From an uncultured Caulobacterales bacterium (GTDB lineage Bacteria > Pseudomonadota > Alphaproteobacteria > Caulobacterales > Maricaulaceae), in NCBI GenBank assembly GCA_938040095.1, contig CALHXF010000047.1, positions 1 to 39,682 on the forward strand: DNA of 39,682 nt, given 5' to 3'. Under the pieces are notes generated by a model that searched no databases, was not told where the DNA came from, and saw nothing but the letters and a program-made list of their open reading frames with translations. This document shows, in pieces, positions 18,247 to 27,041 of this stretch (position 1 is the stretch's first letter; every line of letters begins with the position of its first letter). Both the position numbers and the translations under genes were made by a program.

Positions 18247-18468
18247 CTAAGCGCCGAAACCTGCAAATTTGTCTTTGAAGCGTGACACGCGTCCACCGCG
18301 GTCCATCAATTTAGCGTCGCCGCCTGTCCAAGCTGGATGCGTCTTGGAATCGATGTCGAGGACGAGTGTGTCGCCTTCTTTGCCATATGTTGAACGTGTC
18401 TCATATGTAGAGCCGTCCACCATTTGCACATTGATCATGTGATAGTCTGGATGTGTATTCGTTTTCAT
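18247..18468 (-). CDS. rpmE: 50S ribosomal protein L31
   Basis: [29 protein letters not shown]...[13 protein letters not shown]...[17 protein letters not shown]. Confidence 0.95.
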
Positions 18469-18609
18469 GGTCTTTGCCTTATTTGGTCACGGGATTTCGT
18501 TGGGTGGCAATCCCGCTCGCGAGGGCGCGACATAGACGGGGATGGGAGCTTCGTCAAGTTAGCGATCTCAGGGTCCGATGGACGCGAAATAATTTGGCCA
18601 CAGATATTG

Positions 18610-18653
18610 ATATTTATCTATATATCTATAATTCCCGATATATGGATAAATAT
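18610..18653 (+). promoter_or_regulatory. Probable ArsR operator/promoter
   Basis: ATATTTATCTATATATC-[TATAATTCCC]-GATATATGGATAAATAT; arms match at 16/17, TATAAT lies in the spacer, the arsR ATG (18642) lies in the right arm. Confidence 0.7.
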
Positions 18654-18974
18654 GCTTCACTCTCTGCCTTTTCGGCCCTCTCTAACGCCGCACGATTGGA
18701 TGCCTTTCGTTTGCTAATTAAAGCAGGGGAGGCGGGTTTGCCGTCGGGTGAAATCGCAGAGCGTTTGGGCGCAAAGCAAAATTCAACCTCGACCAATTTG
18801 GCGATCTTGCAATCGGCCGGTCTCATCCACTCTGAGAGAGATGGGCGCAGCGTGAAATACCGCGCCGATATGTCGGGTGTGCGGGGGCTCTTGGAATTTT
18901 TGATGGAAGAGTGCTGTGGCGGAAACCCAGAACTCTGTGGTCCCGTTTTAGATAAGGTCGCCTGTTGTGAGTAA
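18642..18974 (+). CDS. arsR: ArsR/SmtB family metalloregulator
   Basis: 110 aa winged HTH; LSNAARLDAFRLLIKAGE..LPSGEIAERL..KQNSTSTNLAILQSAGLI; C-terminal EECCGGNPELCG...ACCE cysteines. Confidence 0.88.
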   Translation: MDKYASLSAFSALSNAARLDAFRLLIKAGEAGLPSGEIAERLGAKQNSTSTNLAILQSAGLIHSERDGRSVKYRADMSGVRGLLEFLMEECCGGNPELCGPVLDKVACCE

Positions 18975-19647
18975 TATCGACGACATTAAATTCACAGCGG
19001 CACAACGTTGGGCGTCTGAGGCGCTCGGGACGGCGTTCTTGCTCGCCACTGTTGTCGGTTCAGGGATCATGGCGGAGACGTTGTCAGGCGGCAATGTGGC
19101 TGTAGCACTCTTGGGCAATACGATTGCGACAGGCGCGATCCTCTATGTGTTGATTACAATTTTTGGACCAATCGGCGGCGCGCATTTCAACCCTGCTGTG
19201 ACTTTCGGGTTCTGGTTAAATAAATCTATCTCTGGCCGCGAAGGACTGGGCTATGTTGTGGCGCAAACTCTGGGCGGTGTGATCGGCGTCTATAGCGCCC
19301 ATGCCATGTTTAGCGCGCCTGTGTTTCAGACGGGCGTCAAAGAGCGCGCGGGGGCCGCGCAGGGATTCTCTGAATTTATCGCGACCTTTGGATTGATGCT
19401 CTGCATCTTTCTGGCTGTGAAGTTTAAACCCAAAGCCGTACCTATGACTGTCGGCCTTTATATCACGGCAGCCTATTGGTTCACGGCCTCCACCAGTTTC
19501 GCCAACCCCGCCGTCACTGTCGCGCGTAGCCTCAGCGATAGTTTCGCAGGCATCAGACCCATCGACGCGCCATTGTTTATCATCATGCAAATGATTGGCG
19601 CAGCGGTCGCGTTCTGGGCGTATCGGTTTTTTGTTCGTAGGGCGTAA
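18967..19647 (+). CDS. MIP family channel / aquaglyceroporin (AqpS-like)
   Basis: Two NPA motifs (GGAHFNPAVTFGFWL; FANPAVTVARSLSDSF); GTG start overlapping arsR. Confidence 0.88.
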   Translation: MSNIDDIKFTAAQRWASEALGTAFLLATVVGSGIMAETLSGGNVAVALLGNTIATGAILYVLITIFGPIGGAHFNPAVTFGFWLNKSISGREGLGYVVAQTLGGVIGVYSAHAMFSAPVFQTGVKERAGAAQGFSEFIATFGLMLCIFLAVKFKPKAVPMTVGLYITAAYWFTASTSFANPAVTVARSLSDSFAGIRPIDAPLFIIMQMIGAAVAFWAYRFFVRRA

Positions 19648-20163
19648 GGGCATCTAACCGTGCGTTTTAAACAATGATCCGCTTTTATAAGAATACCTAA
19701 ATCCTCACTTTCAATAGCTTACGCCTTATTTCAACAACATGATCCTCGCTATCAAAACCCATGATAGTGTGGACGGGTTCTTTCGGATACGGGACAGGCG
19801 GGGCCTCGCTTGCTGGTCCGAGAGACAGTGGGTCTGAGCGTTGGATGGTGAGACATCTGGAGGTGCCGGGGCTTTTAGAGTGAGCGCACGACATTGCGTG
19901 TCCGGGTCTGGAAGGCAGGCTCCGACGCGTAACTATGACCAGCTGTTACCGCTTTATCAAAAACCGCTGCTGCGTGGCCAATTTTCGCGTAAAAAACTTT
20001 TCTATCTTGGTATTCCATCGCGAATATCGACCACGCGGACTGTCCCGCCTTTTATTTGTCGCCACTGGATTGGCGATGGGAAAAGCCGCTTGCCTATAAG
20101 TCAGACGGCTCGATTGCGTCGTTTTCTATTTTCCTCCGTTCCCCAATCGTGCAGGACGTCTAC

Positions 20164-20715
20164 ATGTTAAACCTCATCCCACATCCAGAGATATTCAAGA
20201 GCGGTACGCGTGTTTTATATTTAGTGTCGCGGAATAAGGGCACGGATGTAAAGTCACGTGGCGCCATGAAAATTTCGCATGATGTGGCGCAATTTGATCG
20301 GAAACTGGCCCAGCTCATGGCTTATGCAGGGCCTGACCAACGAGTCTATGCGTCGGCGGAACCGCGCGACATTCAAAAGGCGATACGGTCATTGAAGATG
20401 GCGCAGTTGGACGCGGATTATGACGAAGATCCGACCAACTTCTATCGGCGTTTAGACGCGCGATGGGCGTCGGCGCTGATGCAACCTTCACATGCGATGA
20501 AGGGCGAGAAGCTCTGGTTGATTGATTGCGATAGTGAGGCGGAGGTCACGCAAGCCCGCGCGGCATTAGGGGAATTCTACACGCAGGATTACATCTATGA
20601 ATACGCCTCCAAAACGGGACGTCACATTTTGATCAAGCCCTTTAACCTCAGTAAATGCCTGTCGACGTTTCAGAATCTAATTCATAAAAATGCATTGATG
20701 CTGTGGGGGTATTAG
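20164..20715 (+). CDS. Hypothetical phage-like protein (possible primase/polymerase-like fold)
   Basis: Internal start MLNLIPHPEIF of ORF 20056..20715; VLYLVSRNKG, RVYASAEPRDIQKAI, KLWLIDCDSE, YASKTGRHILIKPFN. Confidence 0.55.
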   Translation: MLNLIPHPEIFKSGTRVLYLVSRNKGTDVKSRGAMKISHDVAQFDRKLAQLMAYAGPDQRVYASAEPRDIQKAIRSLKMAQLDADYDEDPTNFYRRLDARWASALMQPSHAMKGEKLWLIDCDSEAEVTQARAALGEFYTQDYIYEYASKTGRHILIKPFNLSKCLSTFQNLIHKNALMLWGY

Positions 20716-20746: not shown

Positions 20747-21571
20747 TTAAACAGCTAAACGCTCTTTTAGCATCGGCAGGAGCACGGCGTTTGAGACGAT
20801 CGGATCACCTGAATAGGCCAGATCATCGGAACCCGACAGGCTCTCAACAATACAGCCCGCTTCTTGGGCGATGAGGAGGCCAGCAGCGACATCCCAAACG
20901 GCGAGGTCGCGTTCCCAATAGCCGTCGAAACGACCTGCCGCCGTGGCGACAAGATCAAGACTGGCCGCGCCCATTGTGCGCACGCCATAGCTGGAGCCCA
21001 TAACTTTATGCAATTCTTTGAGGAATCGCGCATGACCTGTACGGCCAATAAAGGGCGTGCTTGTAGCGAAGAGGCTTTCTTGGAAAATGTCACGTTGGGC
21101 AGGACGCAAACGACGGTCTGCGCCGCCGCGCGTGCCGTCATTGACAAAAGCGCCTTTGCCTTTTTCGGCCATGAACATTTCATCCGTGATTGGATTGTAG
21201 ACCATGCCCGCTACGACTTCCCGTGGGGTCTCATCAATCTCACGTTCCAATGCGATTGAAATCGCGAAATGCGGAATACCATGCGCATAATTCACCTTGC
21301 CCTGCATTGGGGCAATGATGAAGCGATGGGTCTTATCAGACCCTATAATTTCTCCGCCTTCTTCGAGAAGGAAACCATAACCGGGACGGCCTTCACCCAG
21401 CATTTCAACGAGTGTTCGCTCAGCCTTGATGTGGGCGCGGTTGACGAAATCTTTCGGACCCTTGCGAGCGATTTGTAAGTGCTCGACTTCGTTGAAATCG
21501 CGCAGCAAGTTGCGGGACGCTTTACGCGCCGCTTCTTGCATGATGGTCATGATAACTGACATTCCGCTCAT
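20747..21571 (-). CDS. Inositol monophosphatase (SuhB) family protein, predicted catalytically inactive
   Basis: Full-length family match ([45 protein letters not shown]) but DPxDGT is replaced by APMQGK. Confidence 0.88.
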   Translation of the reverse strand: [274 protein letters not shown]

Positions 21572-21750
21572 GATTTTTCCTTAGTTGCGATATATCGCAT
21601 TGAAATAAAAAACGTGCTCAAGAGGACACCAATACATAGTCCTAAAGGCAAGAGATTAACTTGAGGGTCGGCTAAATATCGGCCAACCAATGTGAAAACG
21701 AGGGGTATGCCTATGGCAAAAATGAGGATCGTTTTGACGTTATCCCTCAC
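21568..21750 (-). CDS. Small two-TM membrane protein
   Basis: 60 aa, two hydrophobic segments; packed directly between efp and the SuhB-family gene. Confidence 0.6.
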   Translation of the reverse strand: MRDNVKTILIFAIGIPLVFTLVGRYLADPQVNLLPLGLCIGVLLSTFFISMRYIATKEKS

Positions 21751-22314
21751 TCAGTCGGCTCGTTTCACGTAGCTACCATCATTTGTATTGATGACCAAAC
21801 GCTCGCCCGCATCTACAAATGGTGGGACGTTGGTACGTGCGCCATTTGACAGGGTTGCGGGTTTGAATGAATTGGCCGAGGTCTGACCTTTGACGACAGG
21901 TTCAGTTTCCTCAACCGTGAGGATCACCTGCTCTGGCAACGCAACTGTAATCGCGCGCTCTTCGTAAAATTCGACTTCGACTTCCATACCGTCTGTGAGG
22001 TACTGGGCTTGGTCGCCGACGAAGTCAGCTTGCAGATAGATTTGCTCGTAATTTTCAGCGTTCATGAAAACGAGCATATCGCCTTCAGGATAAAGATAAG
22101 TGTGTGTCTTTTGGTCTAGACGAATGCGTTCCACAGTTTCCGCAGAGCGAAAGCGCTCATTGAGCTTACGTCCGTCGAGGAGGTTCTTCAATTCGACCTG
22201 ATTAAAGGCACCGCCCTTACCGGGTTTCACCGCGTTACATTTCACCGCGACCCAAAGTGTGTCTTGGTGCTTGATGATGTTGCCGGGTTTAATTTCATTG
22301 CCGTTCATTTTCAT
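21751..22314 (-). CDS. efp: Elongation factor P
   Basis: [48 protein letters not shown]-terminal [20 protein letters not shown]. Confidence 0.96.
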
Positions 22315-22484: not shown

Positions 22485-25400
22485 TTACGGTTTGGACGCC
22501 GAGGTCTCACCGATTGTCTTGACGTTATCATCGACATTGCGTTCCAGCATAAGACGACGTGGATCGAGCGCGATGTGGGTCGGTTTTTCTGCGACATTAA
22601 ATATGAAGGTTTGCTCTGACTTCGTCACGCGAACCGTCTCTAAAGCGCTCCAAGCGCTCCAAAGTTTCTTTGGCACGTCGGTGTAGAGGCCAATTTCGAG
22701 CGGTTCATTCAGGACTTCACCGTCCATGTCAGACCAACTTTCGGAGGTCTTCATCTCTTCGGTCTTGATGTCCTTGTCTAAGCTGACATGGATTGTGACC
22801 TTCCATGTACCGTCGGCATTCTCGGTGAGAGTTGGGCCGTTATCACCAAAGGCGAACTTCCACCAGACCATGCGGTCCCATTGATCCGTGATGAGCTGAT
22901 CATATTCAGGACCTGCGGCTTCACGTAGAACATTGGTCAATGTTTTCGTCGTTGGATACGGCGCGCCCTTTAGGCCGTAATCGTCCAAGAAGCCTTTCAT
23001 CGCGTCGCGCATATTTTGCGGCCCGATATAATTTTTCAGACTCCAGAGTACCCAATCAGCTTTATTGTAAACCAAATATTGTTGGTCACGTGCTTTCGAC
23101 AGCGGGACTTCCTTTTCACTGTCCATGAACGCCAAACCTTGTAACCCCGCAATGGTCGAGTTTTCCAGGGCGTAATGGGTCTTGTCCCAGCCGTACTTCG
23201 CTTCATATGCGTCCATCGTCGCATAGGATGTCAAACCTTCGGAAAGGACATTATATCCACGGCTGAAACCTGGCACGATCTGATGGGCAAACCATTGATG
23301 CCCCATCTCGTGCATTGTCGTTTGTGAGGCGTTATCGAGCGTCTTCACATCGTCGGGGTCACCCGAGTCCATAATAAACCCTCGTTCGGAATAAGGAATG
23401 GTCCCTGCAAATGCTTGTGCGAAGCCGATGAAAGGGACTTCCATGATGCGGACATAATCATATTGGTAAGGCGAGAAATGCTCCGTGTAATGACTCAGTG
23501 AAAATTGTGTCGCCTCGATCATCTCCTGAACTGAAAAATCATGATGTTCTGCGTGATAGATACTGATCGGGATGACCTTGCCGTCAGGGGCTGTCCAACT
23601 ACCCGTAGTCACGGCGTATTCGCCCGACAACATAGAGAAGAAATTACTGATAGGTTGCGTCGTTTGATAGGTCCGACACGTCCGACCATCCTTCGTTTCC
23701 TCCGAGATCAGATTGCCTGGCGCAATCGGAATTTGCGGGGCTTCGGTGCAGATGTGACCTTCAAAATCGATCATATCCGCAGGACCTGTAATCGCCCCGA
23801 AGAGACTCATATCTGAACCTTCTGCCAGGGGTTCAGGGAGTTTCTCTAATTCTTCCAATCCCAACTTACGACGTTTCTTAGAACTCTGGATCGAAAAATC
23901 AGGTGGACCGAAGACGGGCACGACGCGTGGGCTGCCTCGAAAACCTGCGTAATTATTCATGAAGGTCCCGTTTTTGGAAACCGAGCTTTGATCTGCAAGA
24001 CGTGGCCCGTGTAAGAAAACTTCGAAGTCCAATTCTACCGTTTTACCAACGGCGAGAGGCGGCGAGAATTTGAACAGACGCACATCATATTCATTGATGG
24101 CTTCGATTGTATCGCCCTCCATGTTCTTGCCTGAAGTGACTTCTGTTGCACCTTCAACTGTCAGAACGCGCATGTCTTCTTCATGTCCTGTCGACGGCTG
24201 AACATAGAGTTCTGTGATCGGTTCGCCGCTGGAGTTCTGAAGCTGCATCGTTCCAGAAATAAGCGCCTCTTGACGAGACGGGAAAATCTGCGCGTCCACA
24301 TTTACCGCGCGTGTGTGCGGGCGAGGGAGTTTCATTTCAGTGGCAAAGAGTTTCTCGCCGTCAACTTGACGGGTTTCGCGGTCCTTCTGATTCATCCAAT
24401 CGACGGCGTCATAGGCTTTGTAAATATAAGTACCTGTGCCGATGAAGCCTGCAATCGCGAGTGCAAATATACCGCCAGAGGTTGGGCTGAAATTCCCGCG
24501 AAGGTTTTTCAACCGGATCCATAAGCTCGTCTGTAGTCCACGTCGCGCAAGCCAAACGCCCAGAACGACAAAGGCTAAGACAAACATGGCCCAGTATGTG
24601 TTGAACCATTTAAAGGCGATCCAATTATTATATGGCGAAATCTCTGACACACTTCCGGGCGACGTACCGCTGAAACCCATCAGAGGGTGGTAAAAGGGGA
24701 GCAGGCCAATGAAAAATGTTGCCGCGAGAACCCCGCCTGCGGCGAGCATACCGACGATGCGGTTAGGTGCGAAAATTTGTATGATCATGGCCAGCGCAGC
24801 CAAGAATAGATAATTCGGGAGTCGGCTCAGGAAGGTGTAGCGTAAGTAAAGCCCGAAATCGATGGGCGGACTATCAACTAACGTTTGGATTGCCATGCCG
24901 ATGAACATCCCGATAACGCAGAGGGTCGTGACGACGCCCATTAACGCAACCCATTTGGAAGTTAGGATAGGCCAATTTCTAACGCCAGTTGAATCAAGCA
25001 GTTCATTAAATTTGACACCTTTATCTCTGAATGTGATTTCGGCGGAGAAGAACGCCAAGATCATAATCATTGGGATCAAAAGACTGCCGAACCCAATTGC
25101 AGACATGAAGAGGGATGTCGGGACGAGTTTCTGAGGCGAGAAAAATACGGTCACAATAATCAGGAACGCAAAGAGGGCCGCCGCAAGACTCGCGAGGATA
25201 ATAAAAGGGACTGACTTTACCGTTGTAAGATATTCAAATTTGGTACGCGTCCAAAAGGCAGACACATCAGCCATGAACCCTGAGGATTGTGCAACACCCG
25301 TATATGCCTCACCCTTCGCGACCATGCCAGCGTCTCGGTTTAGCTTTGTCTTGCCTGTCAAAAGACCACGTTTAAATCGACCGAAAACTAAGGCTAAGGT

Positions 25401-26159
25401 ACCAATTGAAATGACAGCCCAAACGAGACGGTTCAATCCAACATATCCTGTCAGCGGTAACATCCGCGTATTCCGTTCGTCGGGTGACCAAAAATTTGTA
25501 TCCAAACTATAGGCCATACTACCGAAGGGATCGGTGACAGCCTGCACCCATTTGGGTGCATCAACTTCTGCTGTTAGGCCGATCATGATCGAATAGAAAA
25601 ACAACCCAATGGCAGAGACAAGCACGAGAACGCGGTTCTGTGTTAGCCCTGCAATTAAAGTAAAAAATGCCGTGACGAAGAGAGCGTTCACCAGAGTGAA
25701 AACCAAAAAGGGCTGGAGGTAATAGAGTGGACGAATTGGTCCTAAGGTTTCAGAATCAAGACTTGGGCTAAATTGCCCTAAAAACTGGGCGACTAAGAAG
25801 ACAAATGTCGAAAGCACAATCACCATGAAGATGCCAGCCATGCGAGAAAGGGTCATGTCGCGCGTGGTTACGGGCGTGGCGTGAATGATCTCCAGCATGT
25901 TGGAGGTTTTATCTCGTAAAATGCCTGTGACCGTGAAAATGCCGCCGAAGAAAATGATTGGGAGATAGGCTGCGGAGATGCCGCCTGCGATCATTTGCGC
26001 GCCATTTGCCTTTAGACGGGACCCTGAAAGCCCCGAACCAATGATGTCAGGGAGTAGCGTCGAGGCCGCGCCGTAGATCACCATCACGACCATCACGACC
26101 CAGAAGCCGATTTGTTTGGCTTGATAGCCCGTTTCGAATTTGAGCAGTTGCTTAAACAT
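22485..26159 (-). CDS. ABC transporter permease / M1 family aminopeptidase fusion
   Basis: 1224 aa; multiple N-terminal TM segments; C-terminal HEMGHQW...SEG zinc motif; EVPFIGFAQAFAGTIPYSE. Confidence 0.9.
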   Translation of the reverse strand: MFKQLLKFETGYQAKQIGFWVVMVVMVIYGAASTLLPDIIGSGLSGSRLKANGAQMIAGGISAAYLPIIFFGGIFTVTGILRDKTSNMLEIIHATPVTTRDMTLSRMAGIFMVIVLSTFVFLVAQFLGQFSPSLDSETLGPIRPLYYLQPFLVFTLVNALFVTAFFTLIAGLTQNRVLVLVSAIGLFFYSIMIGLTAEVDAPKWVQAVTDPFGSMAYSLDTNFWSPDERNTRMLPLTGYVGLNRLVWAVISIGTLALVFGRFKRGLLTGKTKLNRDAGMVAKGEAYTGVAQSSGFMADVSAFWTRTKFEYLTTVKSVPFIILASLAAALFAFLIIVTVFFSPQKLVPTSLFMSAIGFGSLLIPMIMILAFFSAEITFRDKGVKFNELLDSTGVRNWPILTSKWVALMGVVTTLCVIGMFIGMAIQTLVDSPPIDFGLYLRYTFLSRLPNYLFLAALAMIIQIFAPNRIVGMLAAGGVLAATFFIGLLPFYHPLMGFSGTSPGSVSEISPYNNWIAFKWFNTYWAMFVLAFVVLGVWLARRGLQTSLWIRLKNLRGNFSPTSGGIFALAIAGFIGTGTYIYKAYDAVDWMNQKDRETRQVDGEKLFATEMKLPRPHTRAVNVDAQIFPSRQEALISGTMQLQNSSGEPITELYVQPSTGHEEDMRVLTVEGATEVTSGKNMEGDTIEAINEYDVRLFKFSPPLAVGKTVELDFEVFLHGPRLADQSSVSKNGTFMNNYAGFRGSPRVVPVFGPPDFSIQSSKKRRKLGLEELEKLPEPLAEGSDMSLFGAITGPADMIDFEGHICTEAPQIPIAPGNLISEETKDGRTCRTYQTTQPISNFFSMLSGEYAVTTGSWTAPDGKVIPISIYHAEHHDFSVQEMIEATQFSLSHYTEHFSPYQYDYVRIMEVPFIGFAQAFAGTIPYSERGFIMDSGDPDDVKTLDNASQTTMHEMGHQWFAHQIVPGFSRGYNVLSEGLTSYATMDAYEAKYGWDKTHYALENSTIAGLQGLAFMDSEKEVPLSKARDQQYLVYNKADWVLWSLKNYIGPQNMRDAMKGFLDDYGLKGAPYPTTKTLTNVLREAAGPEYDQLITDQWDRMVWWKFAFGDNGPTLTENADGTWKVTIHVSLDKDIKTEEMKTSESWSDMDGEVLNEPLEIGLYTDVPKKLWSAWSALETVRVTKSEQTFIFNVAEKPTHIALDPRRLMLERNVDDNVKTIGETSASKP

Positions 26160-26162
26160 TCC

Positions 26163-27041
26163 CTATGCTCCGCGTCCGACAAGGCCGTGAAGATGGGCAT
26201 GATAGGCGTCCTCAAGCATAACGTCAGCCTGATCCCAACCTGCACCTGGTGAGGCTGTGTCCAAAACAGACACGATAACACCGCCCGAGAGGTGGCGAGA
26301 GGATAGGAAATTACCCTGCGCTTTGACCACCAAAGCCTCGTCTTTACTCACCCGCTTGCGCCAAACCTGACCTTCAATTTTTGCGATCAAGGTTTCAGGT
26401 GCGCCACGCGCCACGATTTCTCCTGCGCCCATAACGGCCATATCTGTACAAAGGTCTCGGACATCTTCGATGATATGTGTCGAAAGAATGATGACCTTAG
26501 TTTCGGCTTGCTCTGAGAGTAAATCGAGGAAACGTTGACGTTCCGTCGGGTCAAGACCCGCTGTCGGTTCGTCCACGATCAAGACTTTCGGATCTCCCAA
26601 TAACGCTTGAGCTACGCCAAATCGCTGACGCATACCGCCAGAATAGGTCGCCACATTCGCCGACGAATGGGTCAGTAAATTCACATGTTCAAGAAGTGAG
26701 CGAATTTGGGACTCTCGCGCGGCCTTATTCGTCACGCCCTTCAATACCGCGATATGATCTAGGAGGGCTTTCGCGCTCATCTTTGGGTAAACCCCAAAAT
26801 CTTGTGGGAGGTACCCAAGCACCGACCGCATGGACATCGGGTTGGCGATAATGTCGACGCCGTTTAATTTGATCTCGCCGCTATCTGGTTTCTGAAGGGT
26901 TGCCAGGGTTCGCATGAGCGTGGATTTACCAGCGCCGTTCGGCCCGAGGAGGCCAAAAAGACCCGGTTTCAAATCCAGAGACACATTTTTCAATGCGTGA
27001 ACGTCCCCAAAACTCTTAGAGATATTTTGAATCGACAACAT
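26163..27041 (-). CDS. ABC transporter ATP-binding protein
   Basis: GLLGPNGAGKST, YSGGMRQRFGVAQALLGDP, VLIVDEPTAGLDP; 3 nt from the M1/permease start. Confidence 0.93.
   Translation of the reverse strand: MLSIQNISKSFGDVHALKNVSLDLKPGLFGLLGPNGAGKSTLMRTLATLQKPDSGEIKLNGVDIIANPMSMRSVLGYLPQDFGVYPKMSAKALLDHIAVLKGVTNKAARESQIRSLLEHVNLLTHSSANVATYSGGMRQRFGVAQALLGDPKVLIVDEPTAGLDPTERQRFLDLLSEQAETKVIILSTHIIEDVRDLCTDMAVMGAGEIVARGAPETLIAKIEGQVWRKRVSKDEALVVKAQGNFLSSRHLSGGVIVSVLDTASPGAGWDQADVMLEDAYHAHLHGLVGRGA

Follow-up and report, generated by a model that had tools for sequence, protein, structure and literature searches.

A putative SuhB pseudoenzyme under strong purifying selection in Litorimonas, with an apparently independent second case in the same genus

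The stretch of DNA analyzed here (the window, 39,682 nucleotides) comes from a fragmented MAG of 2.7 Mb and 79% completeness that falls in the marine bacterial genus containing Litorimonas cladophorae KCTC 23968. An ORF on its minus strand (Table 1) encodes a protein that matched the Inositol_P Pfam family (PF00459) over its whole length (residues 8–268; E = 2e-41, 142.6 bits with a cut-off of 27), and the top NCBIfam match was PRK10757, inositol-1-monophosphatase, at 146.7 bits, below the equivalog cut-off of 332 bits. SuhB structures rank best among its PDB relatives, and the protein groups with SuhB, the CysQ-like and HisN-like genes being separate from suhB. The ORF is a SuhB orthologue of a Litorimonas species and was the one such orthologue found in this 79% complete genome. 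Where its relatives read SRAD and DPLDGT, the encoded protein reads DFVNRAH and APMQGK. The sequence-only reading of the window had claimed that both aspartates and the threonine of a DPxDGT motif are replaced and that the aspartate partner of this threonine is also gone. Alignment with a comparison set of 112 distinct intact orthologues bore out both statements: D87A, D90Q, and T92K fall at columns that are D, D, and T in 100% of the set, and D47H falls at a column that is D in 112/112. We take D47, D87, D90, and T92 to be the counterparts of D47, D90, D93, and T95 in human IMPA1 (human numbering). Two extra changes at invariant columns, G171S and R199T, were absent from that reading. Besides the kept residues listed in Table 1, E220 is retained as well.

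Table 1. Coordinates of suhB, its altered and kept residues, and neighboring genes in the window
Feature	Position	Strand	Basis or remark
274-aa suhB orthologue (PF00459), catalytic site erased	20747..21571	-	ORF, profile match, ML tree
APMQGK at residues 87–92 instead of DPLDGT; D87A and D90Q at metal ligands, T92K at the catalytic threonine	21296..21313	-	alignment
NRAH at residues 44–47 instead of SRAD, giving D47H	21431..21442	-	alignment
E70 and E71, kept; E70 aligned with human metal ligand E70	21359..21364	-	alignment
G171S; invariant Gly of the TG-P loop, altered in the dead clade alone	21059..21061	-	alignment
R199T; counterpart of R184 in E. coli SuhB, Arg in all 112 intact orthologues	20975..20977	-	
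W226-D227, kept; D227 aligned with human metal ligand D220	20891..20896	-	alignment
60-aa hydrophobic ORF between efp and suhB	21568..21750	-	ATGA overlap with suhB start
efp, elongation factor P	21751..22314	-	ancestral neighbor of suhB across the family
219-aa ORF convergent to suhB	20056..20715	+	
ArsR-type regulator, then aquaporin-like gene	18453..19647	+	
1224-aa fusion of ABC-2 permease and M1-type peptidase	22485..26159	-	
ATPase adjoining the fusion	26163..27041		

The distribution of this form, referred to below as dead, was examined in 18 genomes of the genus. The erasure is common to three genomes that are mutually closest, namely those of the window, L. cladophorae KCTC 23968, and the MAG G007. 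These three species (the dead clade) combine NRAH with APMQGK, APLQGK, or SPLQGK, with H47, Q90, and K92 fixed in 3/3, and the two other proteins are 95% and 91% identical to the SuhB of the window. In the dead clade, 29 of the 35 invariant columns are unchanged, as is the helix LLPMLKERL at the C terminus. Given the residues replaced, proteins of this clade would be predicted to lack phosphatase activity. The SuhB of a fourth Litorimonas genome, G005, reads HAAR and DPINGK and carries the replacements D47A, E51K, E71D, R199S, A203P, E220Q, and D227E; all remaining orthologues examined are catalytically intact. The G005 protein (L022, 1501–2313) also has a net charge of +1, compared with −4 to −7 in the 15 other Litorimonas SuhB proteins compared. 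Family, order, and class were scanned with a degenerate DNA pattern for P-x-x-G-K-x-N-[FY]-x-H, by which erasures without G-K would be missed. This pattern matched just the four Litorimonas genomes in sets of 137 family genomes and 398 order genomes, and matched the genome of the window alone in a class sample of 385 genomes that was without the other three dead genomes; no further dead SuhB of the G-K type turned up in any of these sets.

As efp lies directly upstream of suhB in all Litorimonas loci examined and in nearly all family loci, where it adjoins catalytically intact suhB too, the earlier suggestion of a dedicated pseudoenzyme beside a translation factor loses its footing: the proximity is ancestral to the whole family and therefore uninformative about the dead form. 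The 60-aa ORF, which had no Pfam match, is also present in L. cladophorae (75% identity) and was not found at the suhB loci of the third dead species or intact relatives; it may be a small membrane protein of recent origin with translational coupling. The convergent 219-aa ORF is 74% identical in L. cladophorae and likewise had no Pfam match, and no homologue was found near suhB in the other species tested. The ArsR-type regulator and the aquaporin-like gene both have homologues near suhB in G009; in the L. cladophorae stretch a homologue of the former was found and one of the latter was not, and the pair looks like a small mobile arsenic-type module. The fusion of ABC-2 permease and M1-type peptidase is 85% identical in L. 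cladophorae and 74% identical in G009, with identities of 42% and 41% at the same place in G007 and G003, suggesting that in some lineages a divergent copy has taken its place.

Two further IMPase-family genes, one CysQ-like and one HisN-like, are intact in G005, G007, L. cladophorae, and the window genome. Both also occur in nearly all relatives whose genome coverage suffices; nothing was gained in the dead lineages, and we therefore rejected these genes as a compensating second IMPase. In all genus members seen, the CysQ-like phosphatases (L188, L063, L066, and L054) carry a conserved C-terminal extension of ~110 residues, LLHLVIGGELIDP...FILHAHDLIDPDGDGIIG. Inositol-1-phosphate synthase was absent in 18/18 genus genomes, so the name inositol monophosphatase implies no de novo inositol synthesis here, and there is no such pathway to call for the enzyme, which fits a dispensable phosphatase. 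Loss of inositol synthesis was likewise discarded as a trigger, as the synthase is missing genus-wide, intact species included, and its absence does not discriminate between them.

In an ML tree of SuhB, the APMQGK clade that the sequence-only reading had envisaged resolves as three species (support 100/100) nested in intact Litorimonas, with the intact G010 as nearest relative, and G005 groups with the intact G014 and G017 (100/97). After removal of the altered active-site columns, an AU test rejected a single origin of all four dead proteins (p-AU 4e-5), and in the EFP tree G005 likewise stands apart from the dead clade. The catalytic machinery of SuhB appears to have been lost twice independently within Litorimonas, in similar ways. 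Four positions changed in both lineages: D47; D90, now an amide (Q or N); T92, now K; and R199, now T or S. For four common columns among the 35 invariant ones, of which 6 and 9 changed, p = 0.027 under random choice, and the identity of the replacements is a stronger hint of parallel change than the column overlap. The stem of the dead clade carries 28 changes, many of them near the pocket (34, 40, 44–48, 87–96, 171–178, 195, 199, and 225), and 9 of the positions also changed in G005, an overlap that exceeds chance only weakly (p 0.046). The dead clade lost three acids and one arginine and gained one lysine, and G005 lost several acids and one arginine and gained two lysines; the pocket may have become less negative in both lineages, fitting a metal-free pocket.

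Selection on the dead form was examined with pairwise and branch-based estimates. Within the dead clade, pairwise dN/dS values are 0.038, 0.060, and 0.064 at dS 0.78–0.95, similar to the 0.056 of the intact pair G014-G017. A purpose-written codon branch model with fixed topology and one omega per branch class, in which deeper branches have high dS, gave omega values of 0.058 for the background, 0.62 for the dead-clade stem, 0.053 for the dead crown, and 0.18 for G005 (2dlnL 41.9, 3 df, p 4e-9). With the changed active-site columns masked, the stem omega was still ~0.6, and the burst therefore reached beyond the catalytic residues. The earlier reading had contrasted a retained protein with simple decay, for which dN/dS near 1 with disruptions would be expected; neither was seen, as the dead crown equals the background and no frameshifts or stops occur in the four dead-suhB genomes. 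A burst on the stem followed by constraint in the crown as strict as in intact enzymes therefore points to a shift of function, not decay. The claim of a non-catalytic protein that is nevertheless selected has in this way gained support from a monophyletic clade, within-clade dN/dS of ~0.04–0.06, and a second independent erasure in the genus. Judging from these sequence comparisons, the dead SuhB is very probably a pseudoenzyme under selection.

A candidate for the retained function comes from E. coli. In two reports, the cellular role of SuhB is described as independent of its phosphatase activity (PMC6614801, PMC4807359), and the link between the two is left open in one of them (PMC4807359). 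The other describes RNA polymerase binding as needed for the cellular role, with variants that do not bind failing to complement, and states that NusB/S10 needs SuhB to enter the rRNA transcription complex stably; wild-type E. coli SuhB is also given there as a dimer (Huang et al., PMC6614801). The AF2 model of the dead protein shows a confident SuhB fold (pLDDT 87.9), and the top Foldseek matches were the SuhB proteins of Bartonella, Pseudomonas, and E. coli, including chains of the rrn antitermination complex 6tqn. NusA was not found in the window genome (a MAG that is 79% complete). In L. cladophorae (G013), G007, and G005, as well as in intact relatives, a repeat-like C-terminal region of NusA is visible by eye, though Pfam recognized just one weak HHH_5 match. 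K251, a NusA-contact residue of E. coli SuhB, is not conserved in intact Litorimonas either. In the rRNA leader, a TTTTCTTTGAACGC block is conserved between L. cladophorae, whose SuhB is dead, and the intact G009, and these two genomes also agree in a TTTTCTTTGAA block ~100 bases upstream of 16S. The exact E. coli boxA word was not found in the rRNA leader; the TTTTCTTTGAA block as a putative boxA is only a lead. Our literature search found no paper on SuhB as a Nus factor in Alphaproteobacteria.

The residue at position 199 bears on this candidate from the other side. The equivalent of E. coli R184, it is T in the window and S in G005, with R in 112/112 intact orthologues. R184 is said to lie at the dimer interface of E. 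coli SuhB and to be linked to dimer state and RNA polymerase binding, and the R184I variant was reportedly impaired in RNA polymerase sensitivity and complementation (Wang et al. 2007). Loss of this equivalent in both lineages counts somewhat against a Nus-factor role, and the replacement may mark an altered oligomer balance or a new partner. Taking all of this together, the retained role would most likely be that of SuhB as a Nus factor in rRNA transcription, an assignment that we consider evenly poised.

The explanation that we favor, with confidence somewhat better than even, is a pseudoenzyme retained for a non-catalytic job, most likely the Nus-factor role. The ancestor of the three species would have dismantled its two-metal phosphatase site (D47H, D87A/S, D90Q, and T92K), most likely because a non-catalytic scaffold function alone was still needed. 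The SuhB fold would have been kept while the pocket no longer binds Mg2+ or substrate, with three acids fewer and one lysine more making up for the charge of the missing metals, and the outer surface would still dock to partners. By analogy with E. coli, a SuhB dimer on NusA/RNA polymerase would load NusB/S10 and shield the nascent rRNA. For Litorimonas, dropping the phosphatase twice while keeping the scaffold would be the simplest account. The stem acceleration beyond the active site counts against this explanation, as a pure loss of catalysis need not cause acceleration there. A bolder extension, which we advance only tentatively, is that SuhB was twice turned into a metal-free structural factor by one route: an amide at position 90, T92K replacing the charge of Mg2+, and loss of a dimer-tuning arginine.

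The main rival holds that the protein is a neofunctionalized pseudoenzyme, in which a new ligand or partner binds to the altered pocket and dimer core (R199T/S), the protein serving for instance as a sensor or regulator, with the old surface role secondary or lost. This is a possible account, if a doubtful one: the high stem omega outside the active site, the many stem changes around the pocket that recur in part in G005, and the replacement of R199 in both lineages all fit it, but the overlap of changed positions between the lineages exceeds chance only weakly, and the strictly conserved remainder and the C-terminal helix are as they were. Improbable is a different active site built from K92, H47, and the kept E70, E220, and D227, by which the protein would still be an enzyme. 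Fixation of H47, Q90, and K92 in all three species, retention of E70, E71, E220, and D227, and a crown constraint as strong as in enzymes are what such a site would have in its favor, but of the four carboxylate metal ligands two have been lost, and G005 shares just K92 and the amide at 90, with E220 lost and D227 altered. The dead protein, as modeled by AF2, also lacks helix 92–96, which is predicted in the intact G010 control, and has a mean pLDDT of 54 at residues 91–100, versus 81 for the control with the same set of sequences. Plain decay, in which the phosphatase became useless and the gene is heading for loss, could draw on the high stem omega and the somewhat raised value in G005; it is already largely refuted by the background-like crown and the undisrupted reading frames, and the replaced residues have stayed fixed over dS near 0.9, leaving it very improbable. 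Hardly more credible is that the dead pocket arose once and that a segment passed between G005 and the dead clade by recombination: both cases do lie in one genus, share T92K, and have no counterpart in the family, order, and class genomes scanned, but the whole-gene and EFP trees separate G005 from the dead clade, and the motifs (APMQGK and SPLQGK vs DPINGK) and the other lost residues differ. A sequence or assembly error, conceivable for a window from a fragmented and incomplete MAG, is excluded in practice and has a negligible likelihood because the same erasure recurs with different synonymous codons in two genomes, that of an isolate and another MAG.

As judged from sequence, the pattern is real: a SuhB pseudoenzyme specific to one clade and strongly constrained by purifying selection, joined by another case of independent origin in the genus. 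Litorimonas bears on the question of why bacteria keep SuhB an active phosphatase, though its role in E. coli needs no activity, and offers a direct, natural separation-of-function experiment in which the lineage of a cultured type strain had its site erased and then strictly selected, with a second erasure in the genus. It is also a rare replicated case of the passage from enzyme to pseudoenzyme, in which both lineages altered some residues alike; our literature search found no paper pairing SuhB or inositol monophosphatase with the word pseudoenzyme. If the reading as a metal-free factor is true, the protein would be either a new regulator or a Nus factor that is dedicated to this role and permanently dimeric, and the path from enzyme to transcription factor would be a repeatable one.

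Among known systems, the fructokinase-like PAP proteins of the plastid RNA polymerase have a metabolic-enzyme fold within a transcription complex and have lost catalytic residues; their fold and organism are unrelated to those of the dead SuhB, and they serve as an analogy only. E. coli SuhB (PDB 2qfl, 6ib7, 6ib8, and 6tqn) is a full-length homologue, and the predicted fold has a TM-score of ~0.85 to the 6tqn chains. The E. coli protein is an active IMPase with a complete catalytic site, whereas the dead SuhB of Litorimonas is without D47, D87, D90, T92, and the R184 equivalent. The closest solved structure is that of the alphaproteobacterial Bartonella henselae SuhB (3luz and 3lv0; 44% identity in the structural alignment, E = 1.6e-71 by sequence), which reads DPLDGT and SQAD and, unlike the dead form, has kept every ligand. 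Intact Litorimonas SuhB, such as that of G010, is 83% identical to the dead form, of equal length, its sister in the tree, and also adjoins efp; it differs in having the full catalytic site.
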